A stretch of 64,000 nucleotides of DNA from Enterocloster aldenensis (GTDB lineage: Bacteria; Bacillota; Clostridia; Lachnospirales; Lachnospiraceae). Shown here piece by piece: positions 621 to 50,637 of this stretch. Each line of letters starts with the position of its first letter. Position 1 is the first letter of the stretch. Under the pieces are notes generated by a model that worked only from the letters and a program-made list of their open reading frames with translations, was not told the origin of the DNA and ran no database searches. Both the position numbers and the translations under genes were made by a program. Location of the stretch: the NCBI RefSeq assembly GCF_003434055.1, contig NZ_QVEX01000018.1, positions 1 to 64,000 of the forward strand, in the 5' to 3' direction.

Positions 621-3600
621 CGGTATAAACATCTCACCGCTTACTATTTTTTGTGTACAGGAAAAATCATAATACCAACCATCAAATTTATATCCTTCAT
701 CAGCCACTGCCCTCGAGCCTTGTGCCTTTCCCGTTGCAGGTGCTAAAGTTTCATTTAATTTGCTTACATGCCCACCATCTTTTGCTACATAATTAATAGT
801 AACATTACTATCTTCTTCAAAATGTGCTGTATACGTAGCAGCTACATTCAATCCCCCTACTTTAGGTGGTACATAGGTCACTTCGGTACTTACTTCTTTC
901 CCTGAAGCATTCGTCCATCTCACAAAATGATATCCTGCATTCTCTATTGCAGTCGACCCTTGAGCAACGCCTGTCACCGGTGCGAGATTCTCATAGTTTC
1001 TACTTACATGTCCTCCCACCGATGCTGCATAATTAATCGTGACATTACCCTTCTGCCGCCAAATAGCAAATAATTCAGTATTATCATTTATTGATATTGT
1101 TTTATTAGTTCCTTCCCTGGTATATGTCGGATAACTTGCATCTTTATTTTCATCCCAACCAAGGAAATCATATCCGGCTCTGCTGGGTATCGTATCAAAA
1201 CGAACATTTACAACGCTTCCTGCCGCATATTCATTACTTCCAGGAACATTAATATCCCCACCGTTCGGATTATATCTTAATTCGAACTTTTCATTGTCCC
1301 GGATGACACCGTCAACATTCCAATATGTTCTTCCATTTGCCTCTTCTCTGAACTTAATTACATACCACTCAATGCGCTGAGTTGCCGGGTTATAATTCAG
1401 TTTACCGTTTAAAACAGCCTTAATCTGTGCATCAGTCGGCTTAGACTGCAGATTAGCAGCAACATTGTCAAGATTATTGTTAACCGAAACAGGTGTTTTT
1501 AATGATCCCTGTAGAGTTTTTGCAGAGGATAATGGGTAATACAGACTGGCTCCATACCCAGCTGGTTCATATTGGATTTCTCCATCTATCCTTATATAAA
1601 AATATGCAGTATTCCTACTGTCGGTCCCATCTTCATCTATCCAGATTGCGTATAGAACTGCCCCTTCCTTTATTGAACTATCAGACGGTTCTATTTTAGG
1701 GATATATACTGATCCCTTTCCAGATGGATCGGTAGACCATCCAACAAATGTTTTACCGTTATTTGAGATACCAACATCTTCCGGTTCTGGCAAGGTTATC
1801 TTTCCATCGCTCAAAGAAAGCGACGTAGGACCACCACTTCCCCCATTTGCATGAAATGTTATCAACGGCGCCCTATACCAAAAATGTAGTTGCGTAATTG
1901 GATTTGAATATCTATTTCCACTCTTGGTTTGGTATAAAGTACCGTCCTTATAATAAACCGTGCCTATACTTGTAGAATTGTATGACGCTCCTATTGTTGC
2001 TTTATCAAATCTATAAGTTGAAGTAAGCCCCATTTTCCCGATTATATCAGACGCTAAATCAGAAATCTTATGTGCCTCTCCATTTGAAGTCCACAAATCA
2101 AATCCGTCATTAACACTTCCCAATTCAGCCCCAGTAGCTGAGTTCATAACATACACATTCAATTCAGCTGATGTAAAATATCTCTTAAATGTAATCGTAT
2201 ATACAGAAAAATGATCCGCTTCGAAGGATATAGACTTTATACTTGCTCCGTCTGCAACATCAACTGCTTCGGATACAGATTCAACAGAAACAACATCCCC
2301 ACTGGTTATATCTGCCTGGGCCACTTCTTCTTTAGTAGTCTCTACATACATGACCTCAACCACATCTGCATCTTTACTGTTTTCTTCAATCGGAGTACCT
2401 GTAAAAGTAACTTGAACAGAACCACTCCAAATCTGATCATCCAGTTTATTTCCATCTGCATCCAGCAAATCTATATTGTAAGAAAGGGCAGCTAATACTT
2501 CTTGCTCTTCTCCCTCAATATTTTCTTTTACCGCATCCTCAATACCATACACTACGCTGGCAACCGCCTGAACCCCTGCCGGAAGAACGCCTTCATCAGC
2601 CTGTATATGGATTACAGTACCGTCTTCCATAACAATAGGATCAAACACGACCGCCGGATGCTCCCCAGTCTCCGTCATATAGACTTCAATCTCCTGCTCC
2701 TCATAAATCTCAGGAACAGAATACCATGCGGTTTGTGAACCATCCTCATTGTCCGTAACGGAATCTACTGAAAGGATTTCCCCATTCGCAGTCACACTCT
2801 CAACTGCATACCCAATCTGGTTCTTAACACCAAAGCTTAACGCCTGGCCTTCCTCAACGCCTCTTGGTCCTTCAACGATACGGGCGCTGGCTTCCGGGTA
2901 GATGGCATAAGAAATCTTATAGCCCTCAAAGTCATCCAAAGCTTTCAGCTGGTTGATGGTAGTCACATAAACCTTAGCAGTGGAACAATAACCGATTCCA
3001 ACCAAATCGTTTGTTCCTGCCGCAGAAACATTATCATCTTTTGCAGGTGCCTCGGTTGGCTTAGCCTCCGACGGTGAAGCCACATCCGGAACCGTCTGTG
3101 CCGGTGTCTCAGTCGCGCCTTCGTCCGCAGAACCGCTCTCACTCTCAGCGGGCGCTGCCGTTGTCTCATCCGTACCAGGTATAGTTGTCTCGCCGTCAGC
3201 CGCTGTAGTGGTTTCATCAGTTGAATCCTGAGTAGGCTCAGTGGAATCAGTAGGATCTGCTGCTTCTGTTGACTCCTCCTTACTTGGTGCCTCAGTTTCT
3301 TCGGACGTTGCCGCCTCTTCCTTGGTGGGAGCCTCTGTCTCCTTTGGCTCTTCCTCTTTCTCAGGTTCCGGGGCTTCGGTCTCTTCCTTGGCTTCGGTTT
3401 CTTCCTTAGCTTCCGTCTTGTCTGCCGCGTCCCCATTCTCATTATCCGCAACCATTGGTGCATTGTGACGGATGATGGATGCCACAGGCTCATTTACTTC
3501 GGCTTCAGGTGCTTCCGTTTCAGGTGCTTCTGTCTTCTCCGGCTCGGCTGCTTCCTGAGTTTTTTCCTCAGCAGCTTCCGTTGTTGCCGGTTCTTCTGTC

Positions 3601-27062: not shown

Positions 27063-27091
27063 TAGACATTTTGTTTCTTTATAGCTATACT
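27063..27091 (+). promoter_or_regulatory. Peptide promoter, unit 1
   Basis: TAGACA (27063-27068), 17 bp, TATACT (27086-27091). Start expected near 27098, giving a leader of about 35 nt containing CTTTCC-agca-GGAAGG, which can pair and hide the SD. Confidence 0.6.
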
Positions 27092-27133
27092 TAATATGCT
27101 GTTGACTCTTTCCAGCAGGAAGGAGGTGTACTT

Positions 27134-27220
27134 TTGGAATACATAATCGCTTTTCTTATCTCTATTGCGGCAGGTATAGTCTGCTACTATATTTGCAAAT
27201 GGCTGGATAGAGATAAGTAA
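27134..27220 (+). CDS. 28-residue hydrophobic peptide, type I toxin candidate, copy 1
   Basis: TTG start 7 bp after AGGAGG. The product has one hydrophobic span (IIAFLISIAAGIVCYYI) and a charged tail KWLDRDK. The arrangement (strong SD, single membrane span, terminator, convergent antisense promoter) is that of TxpA/BsrG-type toxins. Not recognised as a named family; toxicity is inferred. Confidence 0.65.
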   Translation: MEYIIAFLISIAAGIVCYYICKWLDRDK

Positions 27221-27262
27221 TCAACGGCCAGCCTAAGTTATTCCTCTTTAAAAGGAAAATAG

Positions 27263-27294
27263 AACCCCCAGAGAGCTGCAACTCTCTGGGGGTT
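27263..27294 (+). terminator. Terminator of peptide copy 1
   Basis: aacccccagagag - ctgcaa - ctctctgggggtt, a perfect 13-bp stem, but followed by cg rather than a long T-run. Lies in the presumed sense/antisense overlap. Confidence 0.75.
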
Positions 27295-27339
27295 CGTCTG
27301 TGTACCATTGGAACACAATCGCTTTTCTTTGCTAATACT

Positions 27340-32106: not shown

Positions 32107-35100
32107 TTAACTTCCTCCACTTAATAGTGCCTGGATAATCAAACGTTCCTTCCTATTAATACAGGTGGATAGGGTGACCAGCTTTTCATTTCCCTCCGGA
32201 GTGATTCCGGTATCATAGATGGATGATTCCTTCATCTCTTGCAGATAACCCGCCCATTCTTCCATAAGAAGGTTGGTTTTATAGGCGCCTGCATCATTTT
32301 CACTTCTAATCTGGCAGGAAAAGATGGGGCACTCTTTCCATTTTCCCTGATAGAATATCCAAACTGCCGGATTTTCAAGGTAAAATGACTTTTCCCTGTA
32401 TTTCTTAAGCCCTGCAAACATGGAACCGTCCTTCATGTTATGCCCGTACAGGACTGTGTTGTCTGCTGCCAGAGGTATGCTGCTGCAGTCGGCAAAGATG
32501 CTGCCGTTTATCTGCTCCTTCATGAAAAAATCATGGGTCAGGTAATATTGATTGTCTTCATGCTGTACCACAGGATAATCAATTGCGGTTCCCGGGATGG
32601 ACAGCCAGAATTTATACCCGGGATTCTGCACTATCAGCTCCGGCTCATTAATGGAGGATGATGGGGGCTGTATCTGCGTTTTTAGCTGCTCCGCTTGTGG
32701 TGTCTCCTGCTCCTCTGAATCCACTTTTTGCGTCTCCGGCGGACTCTGCTCCGCTTTGGGCAGCCCTGACAGTTCTGGCTCCACTTCAGGAAGCTCCACC
32801 CCCTCCGGCTCCGCCTGTGCCTGCGTATTCTTATACGCGATTTCCCTCACTGTGCGGTATGTATTCTTTCCATTTATATAAGCAGTCCCCATTTTAACAA
32901 AAACCGCAAAACATATCATGAATCCGGCAAAAAACAGGATGGACAGCAATCCACTGGCCCGCTTAAGTTCAATCCTTAACCTGCCATTCCTGTATCTGCG
33001 CCGTATCCAAACGAAGAAAACACATACCGCCGTTATCACCGCGGCCAGGATTACAGCCGCATGTCCCGGCATCACCATTTCCCTGTGCGCCACGCTGGCA
33101 CCAGTAATTCCTGGGTCCCTTTCCCCGCCCTCATGCACACCGCTGCCCCCAAACACGCTCCTGTTCACTTCACCGCTGTATACAGCCGTACAGTCTGCAA
33201 CCATACGGCTGCCCTCTGCATTCACATCCCTGTACCATACGCCGTCTTTCTCATAAGGCTCCCCCTCCCACTGAAGACGCTCTATCCTGTATGCCTGACT
33301 GTCCAGTCCGGCCTGGGCTAATAGATTTTCCTTCAAATGTCCCGGGAATTCTTCTCCTTGAAGTTCAACCAGGTCATCTTCCAGCAGATACCCGTCAGAC
33401 CCATAGTCCAGGACTGTCACATCCAGCCGGAATCCGTTTTCCCATCGCCTATTTGTAAAATGATAGTCTGACAGGGGAAGCAGGACCTTCCTTTCCTGCC
33501 CCGTTATTGGATCCTGTGCCCATATCCAGGCGGCTTGGGGGATTGGCTCCACTGCCTCCATCCCGGGATATATGATTTCATCTGAAACATAGATGGTCTC
33601 AGAAGCCGCTATTCCGGCTTCTTCCCCTTGCTGCGCCGCCATGGTGTTATTTGGTAATATAAGTCCTGCCAGGACTAATATCAGGATGACTGCCGCTGCC
33701 TTTTTTCCACGCGGCCATTTAAAACCCTTTTTCACATGCAGGCTGACAGCAAGACCGGCCAGGCAGAAAAGCCCAAGGACAGCCACTGCTAAAACGGGCA
33801 TATTGTCTCCGGTCCGGACTTTATGCTTTGGCCCTGTCCCAAAATGGAAGGTACCATTTCCAAACCGGCTTTTCACCTTATATACAGCCGTAATCCGCCC
33901 AATCCGCTTTACCGGTTTCTTTTCTTTCCAGTTATAAAGTGTGGTATTACCCCGCACCTGACCGTCACTGTCCACGGTAAACACATAGCTGGTATCCGCT
34001 GCCGTATATCCTTGCGGCGGTATCACCTCACTTATGGAATAGGTTTCGGGTCCAGGTGGATGATACGTGATTATACCGTCTGCATCCGTCACTCCGTCAA
34101 ATACCGCCTGGTCCGGTTCCTGCACACTCCGGATACGTAAACCAGCTCCCTCAAGGGGCTGCTTGGTATCGCCATCCAGTTTCGTGATTTCTATACGTTT
34201 TTCCTGGTTGACAATCTGATATCCGCCGCGGATGATGTCAGCTCCCTTTACCGTAAAGCTGTGGATTGCCGGATTCAGCGCGTATCCCGGAGGCGCTTTG
34301 GTTTCTTTGAATGTATAGGTGCCGTCCGCAGGCTTTTTTATACGGAAGCTTCCATTGAAATCACTTATGGCTGTGCCCATTGCATTTCCCTCCTGGTCAT
34401 AGAAGGTGAACTGCGCCCCTTCCACCGCCTTTCCTGATGTATCTGTCTTTTTAAAGGAAATGTATTCCGGCCTTGGCTTTGGTGTGTCATCCCCACCGCC
34501 GGATGAGGAAGCTGCCCGGTTGGCAAAATAGAATACCTGGGTGGTATGGGTGCTGTCCGTCACCGTGATTTCCATGTCTTCTGCCATCCTGTATCCTGGC
34601 GGGGCCTGGATTTCATGAATGATATAGGTTCCCGGCTCAAGGCCATGGAACCTGCGGCCTCCTGATTCCTCCGATGTCCATTCCTGTATGATTTCACCGC
34701 TATCCTTTCGAATCAGACGGAGCCTGGCGCCGGCAAGCAGTGTATTGGTCCCGTCTTTTATTTTACAGATATCCGCCATTGTTGAATAGTTGCGCATCTT
34801 CAGGTGAAGTACTTCTTCCATGCCATCTGTTATGGTGAATTCCATGGGTTCAGCCAGGATTTTGAAGCCTTCCGGTCCTTCTATCTCTATGAGACGGTAA
34901 TGGCCGGCCTGCAAATCCCTGGTGGAATGTCCCTGCCGTCCGGTTATCCACTGGTCTATTATCTCCCAGTCCCCCGGGGTTCCATCTTTCCTCCGCTCAA
35001 TCCGCAGTACTGCGCCTTCCAGCATTTCCTCTGTGTCCCCCAGCAGCTTGTCCGTAACCACGCGGTTGGAATCATTGGTTGGCTGATACTCCAGTTCAAT

Positions 35101-38100
35101 TAACGGGGTTTCCTCATCCCTGTACCCGAACTGGAATTCATATGGTTTCAGGTTCAGCATATGACCGGCCGCTGCCTTGGTCTCCCTGCACACATAGGTG
35201 TATGGCTGGAAATCCCCTTCCCTGTCCATATAACCAATGGGCTTGGGCTGGAACAGGGCCTGTCCCCGGGTGTCGGTTACCACGGTTTCACACAGCCGTC
35301 CCGTGGTCTGGTTGGTTAACTGGAATTCAACTCCCTGCAGCTTTTCTTCCGGCCGGTCCGTATCGCTTTTGACTATCTTAAGGATTCCGTCCGGGATTTC
35401 ATCTGTCATCCCTGTTTTCTGGATTATCCCTGTATCAGCAACTGTAAAGGGTATGTCCACCGACTGAAGGAAGCCGTATGGCGTTGTTTCTTCCCTTAAG
35501 ATATAGTCGCCTTCCGGTATATACGCTATGATATGGGGTCTTAAGTCCCCTGGTTTAAATCCCTCAGGAATCCTGCCTCCTGCCTGGTCCTCCTGGGTAT
35601 ATCTCCCGTCCAGGCCGCTGATCCACGATGCTTCTATATCCTGGTATCCACCTTCTATGGCGGGCTGATGGAGAATCAGCGGCGTATCTGAGATGTCCCC
35701 CTTTTCATCCACCGGATAGACCGTGAGTTTTGCCCCATGGACTTCCTTCCCGCCAGTGATATTTACCTTTGAAACCTCCATTCTCAAAGGTTCATCGCCC
35801 ATCTGCGCGTACTGTATCCGTTCCAGGTGGCCTATGTCTTCAATGGTTATCAGAATTGGATCTGATGTGGCATAACCTTCCGGATTACGGGACTCTGCCA
35901 GGACGTAATATCCCACAGGAAGATATTCAAGACGTGTGGTCCCATTTTCCGTATAATAATAGCGTCCCTGGTAGGTATTGGGAATCGGTTGGAAATCATA
36001 GTCGTATTTCATGATTGCATGGTTCCCTGCTGCGTCCGGTGTTACCCTGCCGGTCGCAGCTACCTCCTGTGCATCCTGATACGTGGCTGCACGGAACGTA
36101 AATATGCCTGCCCCGGCATCGAATTGAGGTATGCCGTCCTTTATCAGCGGATGGCCCTTGTCATCCAGACGGGCGCGGTACAGGGTCAGGTACGCCTCGC
36201 TGTCTTTGTAAATGGTATCTTTGTTCTGCGTGTCATATTTCCAGATATCAATGGCGGTAAAATCATCTTCCATCTCAAAGCTCTGGACATTTCCGGTTTC
36301 TTCTATATGAATATTGACATCTGCCGACTGCACATAACCCTGTTCATAGGGACAGGCGGTCTCTTCCAGAACATAATACCCAACAGGTATATGGTCAATC
36401 CAGTGAGGCTGGGGGGTTGGGATTGGCTGGCCGTTCCCATCCAGTTTGAGATTCCCATTATCATCATACAGGCATCCGCTTATCCAGCTGGCGTACACCT
36501 CCCCCTTTTCATAATGTCCGTATTCGTCCTGGACCGGGCTTTTGTCATCACTTAGCCTGGCACGGTATAACGTCATGACCGCGCCCTGGATTTCCTTCTG
36601 GGTGCGCACATCTATTTTTGCAAATGCTGTCTTGGTATATTCATTCTGCATGAAATATTTCTGTACCTCGTCCGTGTCATGGAGCACCAGGCCCATATAC
36701 TTTGACTGGATATATCCCTGTTCATACGGCACCCGTTCCTCCTGAAGGATATATGCCCCAAAAGGAAGACGGGCAATGGAGTGGACAGCCCCGGCAACTT
36801 CTTCCTTTCCATGGGGATCCGTGCTGTTGTCTGTTATCCAGGATTCTTCCTTTGTGACCACGTTTCCGCCCGTATAGTATACCGGCAGTCCATTTTCATC
36901 ATCTTCCGTGCTCTTGTTCTCATAAATGGTCTGTCCGCTTCCGGTTCCGTCATCCACCACCTGGATGGACTTTACCAGTTCTTTGTTCCCCTCCTCATCC
37001 GTGGTGTATGCCAGCATGCGGCCATAATCATCATAAACATAGGCCATGCCGGTATTAGGATCCGCATAACACAGATGATTCCCCCGCTCATCCAACACGG
37101 ACAGCCGGCCTGTAACCGGATCTGGCCGTGTGGAGGTCTGGTCAAGGTCATAATAATAAAGGTTGACCGGTTCATTGGGCACAATGACCGTGTCCCATAC
37201 ATCCGCGGCAGCAGGCCCGCTGTCCTGGCCAATGATACGGATTTCCCTGTGGGTGCCTGTATTTGTATCCTCTATGGCCGTTACCCTGCCATCTTCCCTT
37301 TGAACTGTTATCCCTTTATATGTGTTTCCGTCAAGCGTTTCTATCTCCACGGCCCTGTAAAGGGACAGCCTGGCTCCTGACACGGGTATGTCAAACCGGA
37401 TGCCCTTTCCGGAAAAGGTTCCATCCAGCTGATAGAGCGGCTTCACGCCTGCCATGGACTTTAACAGCTTCTCACTTCCCTCTACAATATGTTCTGAAAA
37501 TCCATCCAATGCCTTGGTTACATAGCCATGCCACTCCCCGCTTTCAGGATGAAAGGAAATATCCCTCACATCACCTCTGGCCTCCAGTTTCTCCCTGCGC
37601 CCGTGAACCTGATAAATCAGCAGGTCGCCTTCATCATTGACCGTGATATCACGGTCGAAACCACCGCTAAGCTCTGTCTGCCCCTGGGCGTCTGTCCTTT
37701 GGAGGACGTTCTGGTTCCCAACCATGGAGTCCCCGTCCTCTACCTTATGTATCTCCAGTCTGGAAGGGTAATCTTCCACCATTACCTGGCTTACTGTCTC
37801 CGTCCGGAATCTGTCGGTCTCACCGGATACCGGGATTGCATACTGGTATTTTGCTGCTCTCCGCGGTTCCCAGCCGCTGGTTGTCCCATCCGCATTTCTC
37901 TGCTCCCTGTAATAGGTCACATCATCTGAGTATATTTCAAAGGCCGCGGGACGGCTCCGGGTGTAACCCTTTGGGGCCTGGACTTCTACCAGTACATAGG
38001 CGCCCGCGCCCAGGGGCTGGTACATTTCAATATATCCAACCGGGACTTTCTGCACCTGACCGTCCTTGGTTATCTCCCGGATGGTGGAATACGCCCTGAA

Positions 38101-41100
38101 AATGCCGGTCTCATTTCCATCCTTATCATACTGCCTGATTAACTGGCTTTCATCATATTGGGGGATTCCCTCCTTGTCCAGCCGGATGGGCAGGTCATCC
38201 TCCGCCCCGTTGTCCTGTCCAACCCTTGGATACATGATTGGATTGCCGTCCGCATCCGCCACGGTGTTTCCTTCCCAGTCCACCGCCTCCCCAAACAGCA
38301 CGTCCCCTGTTCCGGCAGCCGCGTTCATGCCGCTTTTGTCCACATCACGTTTGGCAGCGTAAATCCGGAACAGGGCGCCGTCATGGATGATGTTATCACC
38401 GGTCTCCGCGTCCAGCTTTTCAATCCTCAGCCTGGAACTGTAATATGCATCCTCAAAATCTTCCTGGGCAAATGCAACAAAGTTAAAATCTTCCCCGCTT
38501 CCTGACGGAACAAGTGTCTCCACGCTCCCATCATCCGGGTTCACCCTGTCCACTGCCGGGGCCAGCACGGTCCAGGGCACCAGCATAGGCGCATATTTCC
38601 CGTCAATGGCTGTCTGCATTCCGGACATTACGGGTACGTTGTCCCTTACCTCCATCTGACCGCTGTCTGTCTCATATCCGTCATAGACTACCTTGTCCAT
38701 CATCCCGGCATCCTCGCTTTGGGAAGTGTATCCACGATAATAGGCTTTTACCGTGTCATTGTTTCCATCCATGTATTCCGGATTGTAAGGTTCTTTGGAC
38801 GTAAGGCTGTGGCCGGGTCTGGCATCCCTGTCCAGTCCATACTTATATACCTCAAAATCCCCGTCCTGTCCGTGTGCCTGGATGATATGGGTTTCCTCAT
38901 TAAAACGTATCTTGTACTTTCTTATCAGTTCCTCTGGGGTGTCTGTGCTGTCATACCTGTAATAAGGACTTCCTGTCTGGTCATTTACATCTGTTTCACC
39001 GGTATTGGCGTCCTGGCTTATATCCGGGATAAAGGGAAGGGTGATTTCCTTTGGGTAATCCTTATTAAAATGACGGTTTGCCAGCTCTTTATCCACATCC
39101 GCAGGCGTCTGTTCCGCTATGACATAGGTGCCGTAGGGGAGCATGATGGAATGGTTGTAATAATCATCCTTGCCATTCTTTGTATTACACTGCAGCGTGG
39201 TCCTGTCACCGTCCGCACCTCCGCCCGGGTCCTTATCCCAGGCAATTGCCAGACGCTGGTCCAGACCTGCAAAAATATCCAGATAAGCGGCAGCCTCGCC
39301 CTCTGCCTTTAAAAGTGCCCGTTCATAGGCCGCATCACTATTTAACCCTGGTTCTGCTGCAAGTATTTCCTTCTTATACCCATCTATGTCATAGTAATCA
39401 ATTGCAAACTGCCTGAGCACTCCGGCCGGATAAGTTCCCCGTGTCTTTTGGTCTGCTGCATACATGGCATCAAAGAATTTTGTATAATTATATGTTCCAT
39501 CCGCTGCCCCGTCCATTGGTTCCAGCAGACGGCGGCCGCCGGCCGCCGCTGGCGGAAGATATAGTTTCTGTACGTCACCCCGAAAGCCTTCCCTGCCTAT
39601 GTATTCGGAAATAATGGTTCCGGACTCATCCACGTAAATATTTTCCAGGTTACTTTTTAAATATGCCTTAAATTTAAACTGGTTTAATATCTTTGTGCCC
39701 TGAGAACTGCTGCCCCCGCGAAACAGACCCAGAAGCACGGTCAGCGGGTCATTGTGCAGGGAACCATATGTGTTGACCCCATCATAAGATGTCTGGGAAA
39801 TGTCTTTTGTGACTTTAATGGATTGTTTGATGACCCGCTGCAGGACCTGGACCGGCTTAGTCAGCGTACCGCCATCCTGTATGGGCTGGGTCTGACCTGG
39901 ATAAACCAATGCCTGGAGTACGATGTAACTGCCTGCATCCATGGCCGGAAGGGATGCATGAACACTGACACCTGCTCCTGCCACATCCGTAAGATACTGG
40001 TTATAGGGCATTTCCATCCCATTATGGTCAATGGTCTTCCTGGATGTTACTGCCCGGTACACAGTCCTCACGGACCGTGTTTCCCTATCCCAGTCCGTTG
40101 TATTTTCCACATGGATTGTATAACTGCCATTGTCCGCATCATGGCTTGCCTCCAGGGGCATCAGCCGTTCATACTCGTGTGATACTTCCTCTTCCGTATA
40201 ATGAAATACACGCTCCATGACAGGGATAGGGTTTCCGGAACCGTCTGTCAGGATTTCCCCTTTAACGTACGTCTCATATACGGGTTGGTATATGACTTTA
40301 ATCTGTTTTTCAATCTCACCGCCATATGCGATTGTGTGGGTGATTGCCTTTTTTTCTTTGACGGACACGGTTTTGCCGGACAGATTGAATTCACCTTTCT
40401 GATATTCTATCCAGTACCTTACCTGGTCAGCCGGGCCTCCGTCCATGGCAGCTGTCTTTTGGACATAAAGACGCTGGTTTGCAAAATCATATATGGCAGG
40501 ATAATCCTCACTGGATGCAGAATAATCATATTGAAGACGGGCGCAGTATTCCCCATCTTTTTGATAAATGGATTCCACGGTTCCGCAGTCATAAAAGTTA
40601 TGGGCGGTAAACCAGTCCAGGATTTCCGCGGCTGCCTTGGCATTGGTATCCCCGGACAGATTCAGGTCAATCCAGGGGGAATCATCCTTGACAGGCTTAT
40701 ACTTTAGCTGGGCTAACATTCCATTGACCTGCACGGCCAGGTAATCCCCGTTTAGGGGCTGCCCCCATTGACTCATGTCATCCGGCGCTGCCGTGCCGCT
40801 TGGATAGGAAGCTGTCCTGAACCGGTAGTAAAGGGTTTCCCCATAGGGAACCTGTTTATCAGGACCGCTGTCCGTGGCCGTATCCGGCTTCATGAACGGA
40901 TTTCCATCCGGCCCTGTTTTGTATTCCCCTCCCTTGGCAGTCTGATAGACCGGATTCCCATATTCATCCAGCTTTGGCTGAAGGGAACTACCGGTAATAA
41001 TCTGCTCCCTTTCATTCCTGCTTTCCGTGTCCACACGGTAAAAATCAGTGCCGGCAGGATAACCGCTGATAATGATGTCATAACCGTTTTCAGTCTTGAA

Positions 41101-44100
41101 GTTTTCCACCATGAACTCGTTCCAGGAACCGTCCGCATTCATGTTGTTATAATCCGATAGCCCGCCGGTTATCCATGCCTGTCCTGCTTCCCTTACCGTG
41201 GTCATTCCGGTCTGGGTACGGTTGCTTTCTGCAAGGGAAATGCCGTTAACAGACAGCTCATACCCTTCGGAACGGCTCAGTTCTTTTATATAATAATTTC
41301 CCAGTAACAATGGCCGTCCTATCCATTGATTGCCGTTGGCTGCCATATTATCCGGATATGTGACGGTGCCAAAACCTTCGCTGGAGGATGTGATGGATGA
41401 ACCGTCATACAGGTTCCCGGCTCCCGTGCCGCCCTCCGCCGGTTTTATGTTGCCGTCCCCGTCCAGCCGGGTTGCGGGTTGCTCCGTGCAGGCCAGGAAG
41501 GAGGCGTCCCCGTTCTTATCCGTTGCGGCAATTGACACTATATCGTTTTGATTATAAATGATTCCCGACTTTCCATCCGGATGTATGATGTCCTGGGCTG
41601 CAAACAGGCCATATACGGCTCCTTCCAGGGATGCATCCCCCTGGGTCTGCCCAAAACTGCTGTCCATATCCGCCTTATACAACTCCAGGTCACGTTTATT
41701 GATGTGGATGCGTCCTTCGGTACGGTGATCCCACACCTTGAATGTGTAAAGGATAAGACCCGGATTCCCATAGGCCGAAACGTCGATGGAATCCAGGCTG
41801 TCATCCATGAAACCGGGAAGGAAACCTGATATGGCATCACTGTCCTCACGGGAGAATAGTGATGTCAGGAAACGTGTCAGCGCATTCCCTTTGTCCTGTG
41901 GATCCGGATTTTGTTCCCCAAGGCTTATGTCTGTTTCAATTGATGGCCGGATGGGGTTTCTTGTATATTCATACGTTTCATAGGATTCCCCCTGGTTTTC
42001 ATCCTCTTCATCCGTGTCCTCATCCTTATCCGAATCCTCTTCTTTATCCGAATCGTCTTCTTCATCCGGATTGTCTTCTTCATCCGTTATCATCACATCA
42101 TCTTTTGGTTCTGATGATGCGTTATTATCCGTTGCAATGGAGGACGACAGAATCGTCTTGTCCCTGGCTGTTTTTGAAACAGCAGGGATTTCCTGACTTT
42201 TGCATGTAAATCTGATGGGATTCTGTTTACTATCATTGAGATTCAGGGTACCACGACCTTTGCTTGCGGCAGTACCGGAAAGATGATTTTGATTTTTGGA
42301 ATGTGCATTGTCACGATTTTCACTTTTCGAAACTCTGGTATCCTCACTTTTAGATTGAGGATTCCGGGCATCCTGACCTTTACGCCCGGAACCCTGGATA
42401 TCCTGATTTTCATTGTTGGAACCTCCTGATTTTTGTACCGTGCTTTTCACATGGCTGTTGGTTCTATCCGTTTTTGAGTTTCCGTTTTCTTCAATATCAG
42501 GGATTCCGTTTTCCTTGGTTCCCTGGTTTCTACTTCCGCTTCCCTCGGTTACCTGGGTTCCACTTCCATTTTCCTCAGTTCCCTGATTCCCACTTCCGCT
42601 CTCCCCAGTTCCCTGGCTTCCTCCTCCATTTTCCTCGGTTCCCTGATTCCCACTTCCGCTCTCCCCAGTTCCCTGGCTTCCACCTCCACTTTCCTCGGTT
42701 CCCTGATTCCCACTTCCGCTTTCCCCAGTTCCCTGGCTTTCACCTCCATTTTCCTCGGTTCCCTGATTCCCACCTCCGCTTTCACCGGTTCCCTGGCTTC
42801 CTCCTCCATTTTCCTGTCCGTTTTCTGCGCCATCCTGTCCATTACTCCCAGCAACGCTGCTCCCTTCAATGACATCATCTGCAGACGGTTCGGTCCCAAC
42901 CGGTTTTCCCTCACCTTTTTCTTTTATTACATCCACAATGCTTCTCTGTCCATCCAGATCCTGCTCCTGCGCCTCCGGCACCGGGTACGTATAAAACCGT
43001 AAGCCGCCCATCTTGTCCATGGCATGATAGACAGGATCCAGTATATGGTTAACCATACCGGCTTTGTAATATCCGGTTACCACATTTCCGCCAGCCTGGG
43101 CAGAGGTAAGAATCACGGTTTCTATCTCTTTGTCATCATGATGTAACCCATGTAATATATAACCTGTCCTGGCAGTCTTCTCCTGCATATGATAGCTGTA
43201 TTCCAGATTGATATAATTCTCATAGGTCTGGTCCCGGTCCTCCAGCATGGCCTGCATGGCTTCCGGGTTCTGGCCGTGGTCATCCTCATTATCATTCTGC
43301 ACATGGAAATCACAGGTGGCTGCGCACAATTCCTGCTCTGCCATCCACTGCCCGCGCAGGCGTTCATTTTCTTCATCGCAGCTGCAGTCTTCACCTTCCT
43401 CTTCTCCATCCCCGCCCTCATGGGTGCACTCAATCCACTCCGGGGCAGGATGGCCCATACAATAAGTCTTACTGTAATCGTATTGCCTGACATCACTATG
43501 GCTGGCCTGACCGCCTATATCTGTATTGATGGTATCACATATATAGCCGGTTTCCGGCTCCGGCAGCATGCGGTTTAAATATACTTCTCCTGTAGAACCG
43601 TCAGGCTCACCCTCCGTATATCCGTCTGTGTTTATCTGGGAAAAATCAAAATCTTCCCAGACATAAAAGGCGGTCCCTTCCAATGGTTGGTTTGTCTCAG
43701 CACAATATTTTTCAAGATCAATGTTATAATTGCTCTCAAATGTTTCGGAATGACGGTATAATTCAAGCTGCGCTCCGCCATCGGCGCTTCCCGGTGCATC
43801 CGGTTCCACCTCAAAGGATGCGCCGGACGGACTATGGCCAAGGTCCAATCGTCCCATCTGTACCTGCAGTCCTGACGGCGGGTTAAAGATATAGGCAAAA
43901 TATTTGTTTTCCACGCCTGGTATATCAGCTGAGGTGATTGTTCCTTTGGGTTCTTGGGAACCGTTGTATTGGAATGTGATACTGTTTCCATCTTCCGACA
44001 ATTGGTACGTCCAATCGGTATCAGGAAAGGACCATGTGGTATTTCCCAGCTGACGGCATGTGCTTATATCCAAGGTCAGCTCATAATGTCCATCTTTCAG

Positions 44101-44721
44101 GGACATTCTCTGCCTGGAACCATTCCATGACGGAAGGGTTCCATTGCCCGCGTCGTAATCATCCATTCCCTGGATGACGGAATCCTTCATGCTTTGGTAA
44201 TATGTCATAACCCCAGGATTGCCCATGACAGCGGCAAACTTTTCCATGGCCTGTTCCTGGGCATCCCAGTCATCCTCGTATCCGGCAAGACAACCCCAAT
44301 AATAAACCTGCACCACACCATAACGGGACGCATCCGGGAAAGGCCCTTCCCACAATAGCCATTCATATGCCAGCACCATGGATAAATACCGGTCAAATGA
44401 ACCGATATACGGAACTGACTGCCCTGGCCGGACTTCATACCGGGTATATGCGCAAGCGGTTCCATCCCATAACTTTTTGCCCGGCTCCAGGCAGAATGTA
44501 GCGCCGCCGTAAGCTGAACCTACCTGGTAAAAACTCATGGAATTATGTGTTTTCCCAAACACATTCAGTGGTTTTCCCTGAAAAACATAATACCTGGGTA
44601 TGATATTGGCCACATCCATATCAGCAGCTTTTGCTGACAATGAAATCATGATGGATGACAGCAGGAATACCACTGCCAGCCACAAGGATAATGGGCGCTT
44701 TATACTCTTAATCCGTTTCAT
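32107..44721 (-). CDS. Giant thioester/Cna-B adhesin fused to a class B sortase
   Basis: One uninterrupted 4204-codon frame, RBS GGGAGGAAGAG. Signal peptide 1-33. Thioester-type domain about 40-250 with Cys77 (FCLEPG) and Gln138 (VVQVYYW). Gly/Glu/Asn-rich repeats 636-734 and an acidic stretch about 875-920. Cna-B/SpaA-like domains from about 1000, the clearest starting near 2097, 2700, 2822, 2982, 3110, 3220, 3315, 3420 and 3509 (E-box KETKAPPGY). Sorting-type motif VRTGDN 3635-3640, hydrophobic 3641-3661, basic HVKKGFKWPRGKK, second hydrophobic 3675-3690 (MAA-QQ cleavage candidate), about 190 exposed residues, a TM at 3888-3907, another near 3922-3946, then a class B sortase (about 3960-4204) with His4094 (YGHNM), Cys4187 (TLSTC) and Arg4193. 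Probably surface-exposed; self-anchoring is inference. Confidence 0.9.
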   Translation of the reverse strand: MKRIKSIKRPLSLWLAVVFLLSSIMISLSAKAADMDVANIIPRYYVFQGKPLNVFGKTHNSMSFYQVGSAYGGATFCLEPGKKLWDGTACAYTRYEVRPGQSVPYIGSFDRYLSMVLAYEWLLWEGPFPDASRYGVVQVYYWGCLAGYEDDWDAQEQAMEKFAAVMGNPGVMTYYQSMKDSVIQGMDDYDAGNGTLPSWNGSRQRMSLKDGHYELTLDISTCRQLGNTTWSFPDTDWTYQLSEDGNSITFQYNGSQEPKGTITSADIPGVENKYFAYIFNPPSGLQVQMGRLDLGHSPSGASFEVEPDAPGSADGGAQLELYRHSETFESNYNIDLEKYCAETNQPLEGTAFYVWEDFDFSQINTDGYTEGEPDGSTGEVYLNRMLPEPETGYICDTINTDIGGQASHSDVRQYDYSKTYCMGHPAPEWIECTHEGGDGEEEGEDCSCDEENERLRGQWMAEQELCAATCDFHVQNDNEDDHGQNPEAMQAMLEDRDQTYENYINLEYSYHMQEKTARTGYILHGLHHDDKEIETVILTSAQAGGNVVTGYYKAGMVNHILDPVYHAMDKMGGLRFYTYPVPEAQEQDLDGQRSIVDVIKEKGEGKPVGTEPSADDVIEGSSVAGSNGQDGAENGQENGGGSQGTGESGGGNQGTEENGGESQGTGESGSGNQGTEESGGGSQGTGESGSGNQGTEENGGGSQGTGESGSGNQGTEENGSGTQVTEGSGSRNQGTKENGIPDIEENGNSKTDRTNSHVKSTVQKSGGSNNENQDIQGSGRKGQDARNPQSKSEDTRVSKSENRDNAHSKNQNHLSGTAASKGRGTLNLNDSKQNPIRFTCKSQEIPAVSKTARDKTILSSSIATDNNASSEPKDDVMITDEEDNPDEEDDSDKEEDSDKDEDTDEEDENQGESYETYEYTRNPIRPSIETDISLGEQNPDPQDKGNALTRFLTSLFSREDSDAISGFLPGFMDDSLDSIDVSAYGNPGLILYTFKVWDHRTEGRIHINKRDLELYKADMDSSFGQTQGDASLEGAVYGLFAAQDIIHPDGKSGIIYNQNDIVSIAATDKNGDASFLACTEQPATRLDGDGNIKPAEGGTGAGNLYDGSSITSSSEGFGTVTYPDNMAANGNQWIGRPLLLGNYYIKELSRSEGYELSVNGISLAESNRTQTGMTTVREAGQAWITGGLSDYNNMNADGSWNEFMVENFKTENGYDIIISGYPAGTDFYRVDTESRNEREQIITGSSLQPKLDEYGNPVYQTAKGGEYKTGPDGNPFMKPDTATDSGPDKQVPYGETLYYRFRTASYPSGTAAPDDMSQWGQPLNGDYLAVQVNGMLAQLKYKPVKDDSPWIDLNLSGDTNAKAAAEILDWFTAHNFYDCGTVESIYQKDGEYCARLQYDYSASSEDYPAIYDFANQRLYVQKTAAMDGGPADQVRYWIEYQKGEFNLSGKTVSVKEKKAITHTIAYGGEIEKQIKVIYQPVYETYVKGEILTDGSGNPIPVMERVFHYTEEEVSHEYERLMPLEASHDADNGSYTIHVENTTDWDRETRSVRTVYRAVTSRKTIDHNGMEMPYNQYLTDVAGAGVSVHASLPAMDAGSYIVLQALVYPGQTQPIQDGGTLTKPVQVLQRVIKQSIKVTKDISQTSYDGVNTYGSLHNDPLTVLLGLFRGGSSSQGTKILNQFKFKAYLKSNLENIYVDESGTIISEYIGREGFRGDVQKLYLPPAAAGGRRLLEPMDGAADGTYNYTKFFDAMYAADQKTRGTYPAGVLRQFAIDYYDIDGYKKEILAAEPGLNSDAAYERALLKAEGEAAAYLDIFAGLDQRLAIAWDKDPGGGADGDRTTLQCNTKNGKDDYYNHSIMLPYGTYVIAEQTPADVDKELANRHFNKDYPKEITLPFIPDISQDANTGETDVNDQTGSPYYRYDSTDTPEELIRKYKIRFNEETHIIQAHGQDGDFEVYKYGLDRDARPGHSLTSKEPYNPEYMDGNNDTVKAYYRGYTSQSEDAGMMDKVVYDGYETDSGQMEVRDNVPVMSGMQTAIDGKYAPMLVPWTVLAPAVDRVNPDDGSVETLVPSGSGEDFNFVAFAQEDFEDAYYSSRLRIEKLDAETGDNIIHDGALFRIYAAKRDVDKSGMNAAAGTGDVLFGEAVDWEGNTVADADGNPIMYPRVGQDNGAEDDLPIRLDKEGIPQYDESQLIRQYDKDGNETGIFRAYSTIREITKDGQVQKVPVGYIEMYQPLGAGAYVLVEVQAPKGYTRSRPAAFEIYSDDVTYYREQRNADGTTSGWEPRRAAKYQYAIPVSGETDRFRTETVSQVMVEDYPSRLEIHKVEDGDSMVGNQNVLQRTDAQGQTELSGGFDRDITVNDEGDLLIYQVHGRREKLEARGDVRDISFHPESGEWHGYVTKALDGFSEHIVEGSEKLLKSMAGVKPLYQLDGTFSGKGIRFDIPVSGARLSLYRAVEIETLDGNTYKGITVQREDGRVTAIEDTNTGTHREIRIIGQDSGPAAADVWDTVIVPNEPVNLYYYDLDQTSTRPDPVTGRLSVLDERGNHLCYADPNTGMAYVYDDYGRMLAYTTDEEGNKELVKSIQVVDDGTGSGQTIYENKSTEDDENGLPVYYTGGNVVTKEESWITDNSTDPHGKEEVAGAVHSIARLPFGAYILQEERVPYEQGYIQSKYMGLVLHDTDEVQKYFMQNEYTKTAFAKIDVRTQKEIQGAVMTLYRARLSDDKSPVQDEYGHYEKGEVYASWISGCLYDDNGNLKLDGNGQPIPTPQPHWIDHIPVGYYVLEETACPYEQGYVQSADVNIHIEETGNVQSFEMEDDFTAIDIWKYDTQNKDTIYKDSEAYLTLYRARLDDKGHPLIKDGIPQFDAGAGIFTFRAATYQDAQEVAATGRVTPDAAGNHAIMKYDYDFQPIPNTYQGRYYYTENGTTRLEYLPVGYYVLAESRNPEGYATSDPILITIEDIGHLERIQYAQMGDEPLRMEVSKVNITGGKEVHGAKLTVYPVDEKGDISDTPLILHQPAIEGGYQDIEASWISGLDGRYTQEDQAGGRIPEGFKPGDLRPHIIAYIPEGDYILREETTPYGFLQSVDIPFTVADTGIIQKTGMTDEIPDGILKIVKSDTDRPEEKLQGVEFQLTNQTTGRLCETVVTDTRGQALFQPKPIGYMDREGDFQPYTYVCRETKAAAGHMLNLKPYEFQFGYRDEETPLIELEYQPTNDSNRVVTDKLLGDTEEMLEGAVLRIERRKDGTPGDWEIIDQWITGRQGHSTRDLQAGHYRLIEIEGPEGFKILAEPMEFTITDGMEEVLHLKMRNYSTMADICKIKDGTNTLLAGARLRLIRKDSGEIIQEWTSEESGGRRFHGLEPGTYIIHEIQAPPGYRMAEDMEITVTDSTHTTQVFYFANRAASSSGGGDDTPKPRPEYISFKKTDTSGKAVEGAQFTFYDQEGNAMGTAISDFNGSFRIKKPADGTYTFKETKAPPGYALNPAIHSFTVKGADIIRGGYQIVNQEKRIEITKLDGDTKQPLEGAGLRIRSVQEPDQAVFDGVTDADGIITYHPPGPETYSISEVIPPQGYTAADTSYVFTVDSDGQVRGNTTLYNWKEKKPVKRIGRITAVYKVKSRFGNGTFHFGTGPKHKVRTGDNMPVLAVAVLGLFCLAGLAVSLHVKKGFKWPRGKKAAAVILILVLAGLILPNNTMAAQQGEEAGIAASETIYVSDEIIYPGMEAVEPIPQAAWIWAQDPITGQERKVLLPLSDYHFTNRRWENGFRLDVTVLDYGSDGYLLEDDLVELQGEEFPGHLKENLLAQAGLDSQAYRIERLQWEGEPYEKDGVWYRDVNAEGSRMVADCTAVYSGEVNRSVFGGSGVHEGGERDPGITGASVAHREMVMPGHAAVILAAVITAVCVFFVWIRRRYRNGRLRIELKRASGLLSILFFAGFMICFAVFVKMGTAYINGKNTYRTVREIAYKNTQAQAEPEGVELPEVEPELSGLPKAEQSPPETQKVDSEEQETPQAEQLKTQIQPPSSSINEPELIVQNPGYKFWLSIPGTAIDYPVVQHEDNQYYLTHDFFMKEQINGSIFADCSSIPLAADNTVLYGHNMKDGSMFAGLKKYREKSFYLENPAVWIFYQGKWKECPIFSCQIRSENDAGAYKTNLLMEEWAGYLQEMKESSIYDTGITPEGNEKLVTLSTCINRKERLIIQALLSGGS
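42520..42815 (-). repeat. 60-bp (30-bp half-unit) repeats encoding a flexible linker
   Basis: The 60-bp unit repeats about 4.5 times in exact register (tcctcggttccctgattccc at 60-bp steps). Each encodes two 10-residue blocks, SQGTGESGSG and NQGTEENGGG. Low-complexity linker in the giant adhesin, prone to length change. Confidence 0.85.
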
Positions 44722-44808: not shown

Positions 44809-45639
44809 TTATTTTATGTATAGCTGGGACACATCATATCCATATTCCGTTATATATACGCCTACTCCTGTTTCTTTCCATTTGGAATCCAGCATATTCT
44901 TCTTATGCTCAGAAGAATTTAACCAGCCATCCACTACTTTCTTCGCAAAATCATGGACCGTATGTGCATTTAAATAACCGCGTCCGGCTAAGTTTTCTCC
45001 GGATGAGGAATGTGTGGCCGTTATCACGGTATTATAATACCTTCCATCGGGCCTGGTATGGGAAAAGGTCCTGTTCACCTCCTCAGCCCTCACCATTGCA
45101 TTTTCCATCAGTTCATCATTCATGTCCAATGCATTCCTGCCCCTGGATTCCCTTTCTTCATTCACCAATTCCCAAATCACATACGCCAGTCCATAAGGGG
45201 CCAAATCTTCCAAGGGATTGGCCTGATTGGATACAGCTGTCCTGTTTTCCTCCAATTGGCTTTCTAATCCATCTGCCCAAGCCCCATCATATGCCCAGTC
45301 AGCTCTTTCCCCATGGATTGCCATGCCCGGATAATAATCCCTGCCTTCAGGTAATACGGTCATGCATACCATGCCATTGTACAGCGCTGCCCCATCCCCG
45401 TTAACCCTTACCCCCTGGTCAGCCGGGTTCAATGACAGATAGCCGTTTCCATCAAAACAATAATTCTCCGCAATACCATCATGGTTCCCATCAACCCAGG
45501 CCCATGTCAAGAACGGATAACTCCCGTCGTCATTCTGCCACCAGCAGCCATTACCGTCCTCCATCCACTGCCCCGCATAAACCGGCGGCGTCATTATCAA
45601 TGCTGCTGCCGCGGTTAATATGGCCAGACGTCTTACCAT
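44809..45639 (-). CDS. Secreted CAP-domain (SCP/PR-1-like) protein
   Basis: 276 residues. Signal peptide RRLAILTAAAALIMTPPVYAG, then a cell-wall-binding-type repeat (QWMEDGNGCWWQNDDGSYPF, NYCFDGNGYLSLN). A CAP domain (about 155-276) shows VNEERESRGRNAL, FSHTRPDG, GENLAGRG and WLNSSEHKKNML, with the His/Glu residues of the conserved cavity. Extracellular, wall-associated. It is upstream of the giant adhesin gene on the same strand, 87 bp apart, and may be co-expressed. Function of bacterial CAP proteins is poorly known. Confidence 0.88.
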   Translation of the reverse strand: MVRRLAILTAAAALIMTPPVYAGQWMEDGNGCWWQNDDGSYPFLTWAWVDGNHDGIAENYCFDGNGYLSLNPADQGVRVNGDGAALYNGMVCMTVLPEGRDYYPGMAIHGERADWAYDGAWADGLESQLEENRTAVSNQANPLEDLAPYGLAYVIWELVNEERESRGRNALDMNDELMENAMVRAEEVNRTFSHTRPDGRYYNTVITATHSSSGENLAGRGYLNAHTVHDFAKKVVDGWLNSSEHKKNMLDSKWKETGVGVYITEYGYDVSQLYIK

Positions 45640-49651: not shown

Positions 49652-50143
49652 TTATTTCTTCCTTTGGAACTTCTGGAACGTGTAGCACAGATCAAAATAC
49701 GTCTGTTCATCACTCTCCCCGGTCATTTCCCACGCCCCATCTTTTTCCAGATTACTGAAAAATGTATCTGCGTCATAGGTATAGTCAATACGGGTCACAT
49801 GGACCGTGTCCACATAGGGCAGGAACTGCTCATATATGCTCAGCCCGCCAATGATATATATATCATCCGTATCATAGGCAGAGAGCACCTCCAAGGCCTG
49901 GTCCAGGCTGCCGCACACCCGTGCCCCTTTCACCTTATAATCCCTGTTCCCGGACAGCACCACGTTCACGCGGTTTCCCAGCGGCTGGGCTCCCGGCAGG
50001 CCTTCCAGGGTTTTCCTGCCCATGACCACCACCTTGCCCGCTGTTTCCCGCATCAGCATCTGCTGGTCAGCCGGTATGGTCACCAGACCGCGTCCGTCTT
50101 TTCCAATGGCCCAGTGCCGGTCGGCCGCCACAAGGATGTTCAT
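49652..50143 (-). CDS. Dihydrofolate reductase, divergent second copy
   Basis: 163 residues. Retains Asp26 (IPADQQML), the NADPH motifs VVVMGRKTLEGLPG and IYIIGGLSIYEQFLPY, and TRI near position 120. The helix after Asp26 reads QQMLMRET, lacking the aromatic Phe found at that place in the neighbour (MKYFRETT). Its start overlaps the stop of the upstream dihydrofolate reductase by 4 bp. It reduces dihydrofolate to tetrahydrofolate with NADPH if active; the altered folate pocket could change substrate or antifolate response. Confidence 0.88.
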   Translation of the reverse strand: MNILVAADRHWAIGKDGRGLVTIPADQQMLMRETAGKVVVMGRKTLEGLPGAQPLGNRVNVVLSGNRDYKVKGARVCGSLDQALEVLSAYDTDDIYIIGGLSIYEQFLPYVDTVHVTRIDYTYDADTFFSNLEKDGAWEMTGESDEQTYFDLCYTFQKFQRKK

Positions 50144-50637
50144 AGTCCCTGCCTCCTTGTATAGACTTTAAATTCATAGGTAATCCCATTGTATTCCTGC
50201 ATCTGGCTGGTGCTTGTGACTTCCCATTCCCCGGTCCTGTCCAGGTCCACAAAATCCGTATCAGCCTCAAAAACATGATGGATACAGGTTACATATGCCT
50301 TATGACAATATGGAAGGAATTCCCTGTAAACCATCCCTCCCCCTATAATGAATATATCCTCTTCAGGATACTGTTTCAGGGCCTCAAGCACCTGGCCCGC
50401 ATCATGGCAGACCGTCACTCCCCCGGGACAGTAATCCCGGTTCCCGGTCAGGACAATATTGACCCGGTTCTTCAGGGGTTTTCCATCCGGAAAGCTTTCC
50501 AATGTCTTTCTTCCCATGACAACCACTTTTCCTCTGGTTGTCTCCCGGAAATATTTCATATCCCCCGGAAGATGGGTCAGAAGACCACCGTTCCTGCCGA
50601 TTCCCCACTTCTCATCCACTGCTACAATCAGATTCAT
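50140..50637 (-). CDS. folA: Dihydrofolate reductase
   Basis: 165 residues. Canonical features: WGIGRNGGLLTHLPGDMKYFRETT with Asp26, VVVMGRKTLESFPDGKPLKNRVNIVLT, and IFIIGGGMVYREFLPYC. First gene of a two-gene operon of dihydrofolate reductases and divergent from thyA, 195 bp away. Placement beside thymidylate synthase fits recycling of the dihydrofolate that ThyA makes. Of the two copies this is closer to the family consensus. Confidence 0.92.
   Translation of the reverse strand: MNLIVAVDEKWGIGRNGGLLTHLPGDMKYFRETTRGKVVVMGRKTLESFPDGKPLKNRVNIVLTGNRDYCPGGVTVCHDAGQVLEALKQYPEEDIFIIGGGMVYREFLPYCHKAYVTCIHHVFEADTDFVDLDRTGEWEVTSTSQMQEYNGITYEFKVYTRRQGL

Follow-up and report, generated by a model that had tools for sequence, protein, structure and literature searches.

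Sortases and their substrates are normally encoded by separate genes, and pairing the two is guesswork. Some polyproteins are known to be cleaved at a signal sequence within the chain, an example being the fbcH precursor of cytochrome b/c1 in Bradyrhizobium. Here, we describe a giant open reading frame on contig NZ_QVEX01000018.1 of Enterocloster aldenensis, within a stretch of 64,000 nucleotides (positions 1 to 64,000; hereafter the window), which joins an adhesin, an exposed domain (ExD) and a class B-type sortase in one chain of 4,204 residues. Each of these parts except the ExD is of a known kind, and their combination appears to be new. Such frames are already annotated in databases, where one relative carries the name ‘SpaA isopeptide-forming pilin-related protein’, whose visible part does not mention a sortase. 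Searched with exact terms, the titles and abstract beginnings of the open-licence literature returned no adhesin-sortase fusion with an internal signal peptide.

Results

The giant frame is open through all 4,204 codons, with GGAGG 11 bases 5′ of its ATG. This bears out the preliminary description of the locus, made from the letters alone, as a single frame, and the residues singled out there (Cys77, Gln138, Thr3637-Gly3638, His4094, Cys4187 and Arg4193) all lie at the positions it gave. The same fusion, which that description proposed to seek in related genomes, is present there. Using residues 3640-4204 as query and admitting only proteins 0.55-1.75 times the full query length, hence giants only, we obtained 59 matches, 54 of which span at least 97% of this tail, with identities from 95% down to 31%. 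On genome contigs, 14 loci with the middle domain were found; the frame is fused in Clostridiales bacterium 1_7_47 (L001), [Clostridium] clostridioforme AGR2157 (L003), Clostridium sp. 1001271st1 H5 (L004) and, as a complete genome, [Clostridium] asparagiforme (L006). Interrupted frames occur in L002, L005, L007 and L058. In L006, the sortase match contains a low-complexity stretch and sits on a long branch. Together, 63 triple-fusion frames (56 proteins and seven loci, some from the same genome, many of them near-copies) form 16 clusters at 80% identity, and three genomes (G001, G002, G003) share flanking genes with the window on both sides. These relatives point to an Enterocloster-type member of the Lachnospiraceae, apparently from the gut.

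That an assembly or sequencing error had joined separate genes is practically out of the question: the same join recurs on many contigs and in several isolate genomes, one of them complete, which refutes this explanation for the family, and we found no point in its favor. A stop codon or frameshift, which would undo the single frame, is made unlikely by the conservation of the fusion in relatives; separate internal starts are likewise made unlikely, as none with a ribosome site was common to all six frames examined. Aligned with L001, the window shows no gap across the join (residues 3641-3698), at a ratio of non-synonymous to synonymous substitution rates (dN/dS) of about 0.27, and the sortase is the best conserved of nine segments compared (89% identity, dN/dS 0.10). 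The giant fused frame is confirmed as real.

By hydropathy (scanning window 17, threshold 1.7), the chain has an N-terminal segment at residues 11-27 and four further ones, transmembrane segments TM1 to TM4 (Table 1), with none elsewhere. Pfam places nine SpaA/Cna-B stretches (302 bits) in the frame, close to the ten or so Cna-B-like domains noted before, and signal peptide and SpaA domains together mark it as an adhesin of this kind. Regarding the head, which had been described as thioester-type, the cysteine and glutamine of the putative thioester are conserved in 15/15 chosen heads (P0059, whose start differs, was left out); no thioester-domain (TED) family or structure match was found for it in Pfam, NCBIfam or PDB sequences, and we call it thioester-like by motif only.

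The VRTGDN motif, with its hydrophobic stretch and basic tail, is present as first described, and its TGD occurs in 63/63 triple fusions of the redundant set. Unlike a C-terminal sorting signal, these elements are internal, with 564 residues beyond the motif; past them, the anticipated second signal-like segment and two more membrane spans appear in the hydropathy profile as TM2, TM3 and TM4. When 16 relatives were profiled, all 13 triple fusions had four tail helices and 11 of them an N-terminal signal segment (P0005 and P0051 lack one at the threshold used); P0058 and P0059 had one tail helix, and P0060, which is without a sortase, two. TM2 resembles an internal signal peptide, and its end carries a signal-peptidase-type site in 15/15 representatives (L006, the 16th, was omitted because it showed a single helix on either side). 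Across 15 representatives, mean net loop charges are +6.2 and +4.1 for the predicted inner loops and −0.1, −1.7, +0.2 and +1.9 for the outer ones; the basic inner loops would therefore place the sortase outside, where it is needed for action.

At the C-terminus, a single Pfam Sortase match covers residues 4040-4199, the fold is closest to SrtB structures, and His4094, Cys4187 and Arg4193 are present, in agreement with the class B sortase claimed earlier. Because TIGR03064 (NCBIfam class B sortase) is the best-scoring family and yet stays below its naming cut-off (132.3 bits for the whole protein and 140.1 for the tail alone, against 153.75), we use the name class B-type. Searches with PF04203 in 299 genomes of the family gave, among the matches listed, frames of 137-579 amino acids, the fused ones ranking lower; a clade-specific sortase model applied to 397 genomes gave, among the matches listed, frames of 205-466 amino acids, save two of 4322 and 4078 and four of 1644-1670.

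No family match for the ExD was found in the libraries searched. Its profile has matches in 34/397 genomes of the family, and stand-alone ExD frames start with a signal segment where TM2 lies in the fusion, a signal-peptidase-type site being found in 28/32 of them (wider scan window). Across L045-L091, a set of 47 loci of which some share a genome and some stop at a contig end, 48 ExD frames were classed from stop to stop: 17 lie in a long frame, 14 are separate beside a SpaA frame and 17 are separate without one. The long frames comprise triple fusions (L045, L055, L091), the interrupted L058, 11 with SpaA and no sortase, and two with neither (L069, L073). The 14 separate frames overlap a SpaA-matching frame or lie at most 130 bases from it, and one comes after the L045 triple fusion. 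Among the 17 without a SpaA neighbor, five (L047, L049, L050, L052, L082) lie, judged by eye, near a conserved polysaccharide deacetylase-like frame; the triple fusion also occurs in three genomes of these deacetylase-linked loci (G002, G003, G127).

Relatives further show adhesin, ExD and sortase as three separate frames (L089), a fused adhesin and ExD with a separate sortase nearby (L051), fused adhesin and ExD in loci where no sortase was matched (L008-L014, Hungatella-type), and an ExD-sortase with its own signal segment and no adhesin (P0071, Lacrimispora, on a 149 kb contig). The sorting-motif threonine is missing in 6/7 of the Hungatella-type fusions. Separate sortases of the same clade also exist; those of L096 and L099-L101 have frames that overlap an adhesin frame. 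Because the parts occur apart, in pairs and all together, the earlier proposal that the three genes of a cassette were fused end to end gains support. A single origin of the triple fusion was not rejected (p 0.098; sortase tree and test both used rows of at least 140 residues).

A second class of adhesin-class B sortase fusion, of 1644-1670 amino acids (about 1,650) and without an ExD, is formed by L092-L095. The two examined for it, L092 and L095, have a VPQTGDD-type motif; L093, L094 and L095 each show two helices, the second of which stays below threshold in L092; and L094 and L095 exceed the TIGR03064 cut-off. Their sortases form a branch of their own with 100/100 support, and this class would most simply represent a separate fusion event. 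Frames around L092 and L094 look mobile-element-like by eye.

Table 1 Features of the giant frame (window coordinates) and frames of the shorter fusion class (locus coordinates)
Feature	Position	Strand	Evidence
Whole open frame, adhesin + ExD + class B-type sortase, 4204 amino acids	32107..44721	-	Open reading frame scan, relatives
N-terminal signal peptide, residues ~1-33	44623..44721	-	Hydropathy
Head region, residues ~35-300, with Cys77 and Gln138; thioester-like by motif only	43822..44619	-	
SpaA/Cna-B-type domains, residues ~2238-3591	33949..38010	-	Pfam
Sorting-type motif VRTGDN, residues 3635-3640	33802..33819	-	
TM1, residues 3643-3659, predicted sorting-signal helix	33745..33795	-	Hydropathy
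TM2, residues 3675-3691, predicted internal signal peptide	33649..33699	-	Hydropathy, comparison with stand-alone ExD genes
Predicted signal peptidase I site, T3693-M-A3695/A (cleavage putative, at the slash)	33637..33645	-	
ExD, residues 3708-3857, mostly beta	33151..33600	-	
TM3, residues 3888-3904	33010..33060	-	Hydropathy
TM4, residues 3926-3942, predicted sortase membrane anchor	32896..32946	-	Hydropathy
Class B-type sortase domain, residues 4021-4204, His4094/Cys4187/Arg4193, including stop codon	32107..32661	-	Pfam, NCBIfam
~1,650-amino-acid fusion frame	L092:4389-9392	+	
~1,650-amino-acid fusion frame	L093:4172-9184	+	
~1,650-amino-acid fusion frame	L094:4084-9063	-	
~1,650-amino-acid fusion frame	L095:4234-9168	+	

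Around the giant frame, a CAP-domain protein gene lies directly upstream (44809-45639, minus strand); its counterpart occupies this position in G001 and G004 and is weak in G003, and none was found in G002. Two tandem dihydrofolate reductase genes (49652-50637) overlap by 4 bases and both have counterparts in G001, G002 and G003. At 27091-27305 (plus strand), the window matches the Rfam family SpF66_sRNA, a Streptococcus small RNA family, at 45.1 bits (cut-off 42).

Discussion

The giant frame probably, if by no means certainly, encodes a surface polyprotein from which signal peptidase frees the enzyme half, whose sortase then cuts the adhesin and anchors it to the wall. The N-terminal signal peptide would export the adhesin, TM1 would act as stop-transfer, TM2, as a retained internal signal peptide, would restart export for the ExD, and TM3 and TM4 would return the sortase to the outside. 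Signal peptidase I is predicted to cut after A3695, releasing an ExD-TM3-TM4-sortase membrane enzyme, which may then, in cis or in trans, cut between T3637 and G3638 and attach the giant adhesin to the wall; a single gene would yield one adhesin and one dedicated sortase. We propose this because the signal-peptidase-type site of TM2 is conserved and because stand-alone ExD begins with a corresponding signal segment. Concerning the substrate, all nine SpaA matches of G001 are in the fused frame, and one of its two sortases above cut-off is the fused one. No PF00746 anchor reaches the cut-off in that genome, where the adhesin is the obvious substrate. For the fuller proposal of a self-anchoring polyprotein with a built-in class B-type sortase, the ExD as dedicated accessory and an adhesin-sortase fusion that arose more than once, we regard the balance as even.

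The preliminary description had envisaged an enzyme that is tethered to the very protein it acts on. This holds for the primary product, but the conserved TM2 site and the sorting motif suggest that the two are cut apart. A lasting tether, in which the joined sortase of one uncut chain anchors its own adhesin or links neighbors, is unlikely, though worth reckoning with: the open frame is kept across many relatives, the geometry does not speak against it and the TGD lies only a few residues from TM1, whereas the site past TM2 predicts a cut in 15/15 representatives and the enzyme half is found alone in P0071. We consider it quite improbable that operon genes were simply joined by mutation and act in trans as halves, with fixed stoichiometry as the gain at most. 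Relatives with separate or partly fused genes and the overlapping adhesin and sortase frames of L096 and L099-L101 are in keeping with such a history, but the full layout of four helices, motif and site is retained down to 31% identity; from sequence, this explanation and the polyprotein would be hard to tell apart.

Several observations weigh against the polyprotein with its dedicated, active sortase. The catalytic arginine position holds a tyrosine in 39/57 readable triple fusions (a redundant count; 6/63 had no readable TLSTC-type motif) and in 4/16 representatives, namely in an E. clostridioforme-like clade plus P0053, a group that includes L003, L004, P0010, P0025, P0050 and their relatives. 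These fusions retain the sortase histidine and cysteine and the TGD motif, and their sortase activity may be reduced or lost. Likewise, P0058 and P0059 join adhesin to sortase through a single hydrophobic helix without an ExD, at odds with the four-helix scheme; taken literally, their sortase would be cytoplasmic. The TM2 site could itself be a relic, because the signal-peptidase rule is loose: the ends of TM1, TM3 and TM4 pass it in 4/15, 7/15 and 8/15 representatives. Lastly, four of five genomes examined carry further SpaA frames and further sortases, and the fused sortase therefore need not be dedicated there. The tyrosine clade, together with the low-complexity stretch and long branch of L006 and the interrupted frames of L002, L005, L007 and L058, would also fit a sortase part decaying into a non-working remnant; we hold this to be very doubtful, as the sortase in the window has His, Cys and Arg and the strongest conservation against L001.

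By tying an enzyme and its likely substrate into one chain, the frame lets a candidate target motif be read directly beside its enzyme. Beyond this, it provides a probable polyprotein from a bacterium, with predicted cuts open to experiment, and an ExD that often adjoins giant adhesins and is not described in the libraries searched.

Compared with known class B sortases (SrtB; 5yfk of C. perfringens, 4ux7 of C. difficile, 4lfd of S. aureus), the sortase here is carried C-terminally by its likely substrate, whereas other sortases of the family are, among the matches listed and apart from the fusions, frames of about 140-580 amino acids. Like Cna-B/SpaA surface proteins and pilins, the adhesin part has a signal peptide, SpaA repeats and a TGD motif followed by a helix and basic residues; unlike them, its chain continues past the sorting signal with three more helices, the ExD and the sortase. 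The shorter fusions L092-L095 are similar in having a SpaA-type adhesin, a TGD motif and a class B sortase in one frame, with a helix pair between; they differ in lacking the ExD and in the separate branch of their sortases. Finally, as in the fbcH precursor, one frame with an internal signal peptide and a predicted signal-peptidase cut would give rise to two membrane proteins, with the difference that here one product is predicted to process the other.
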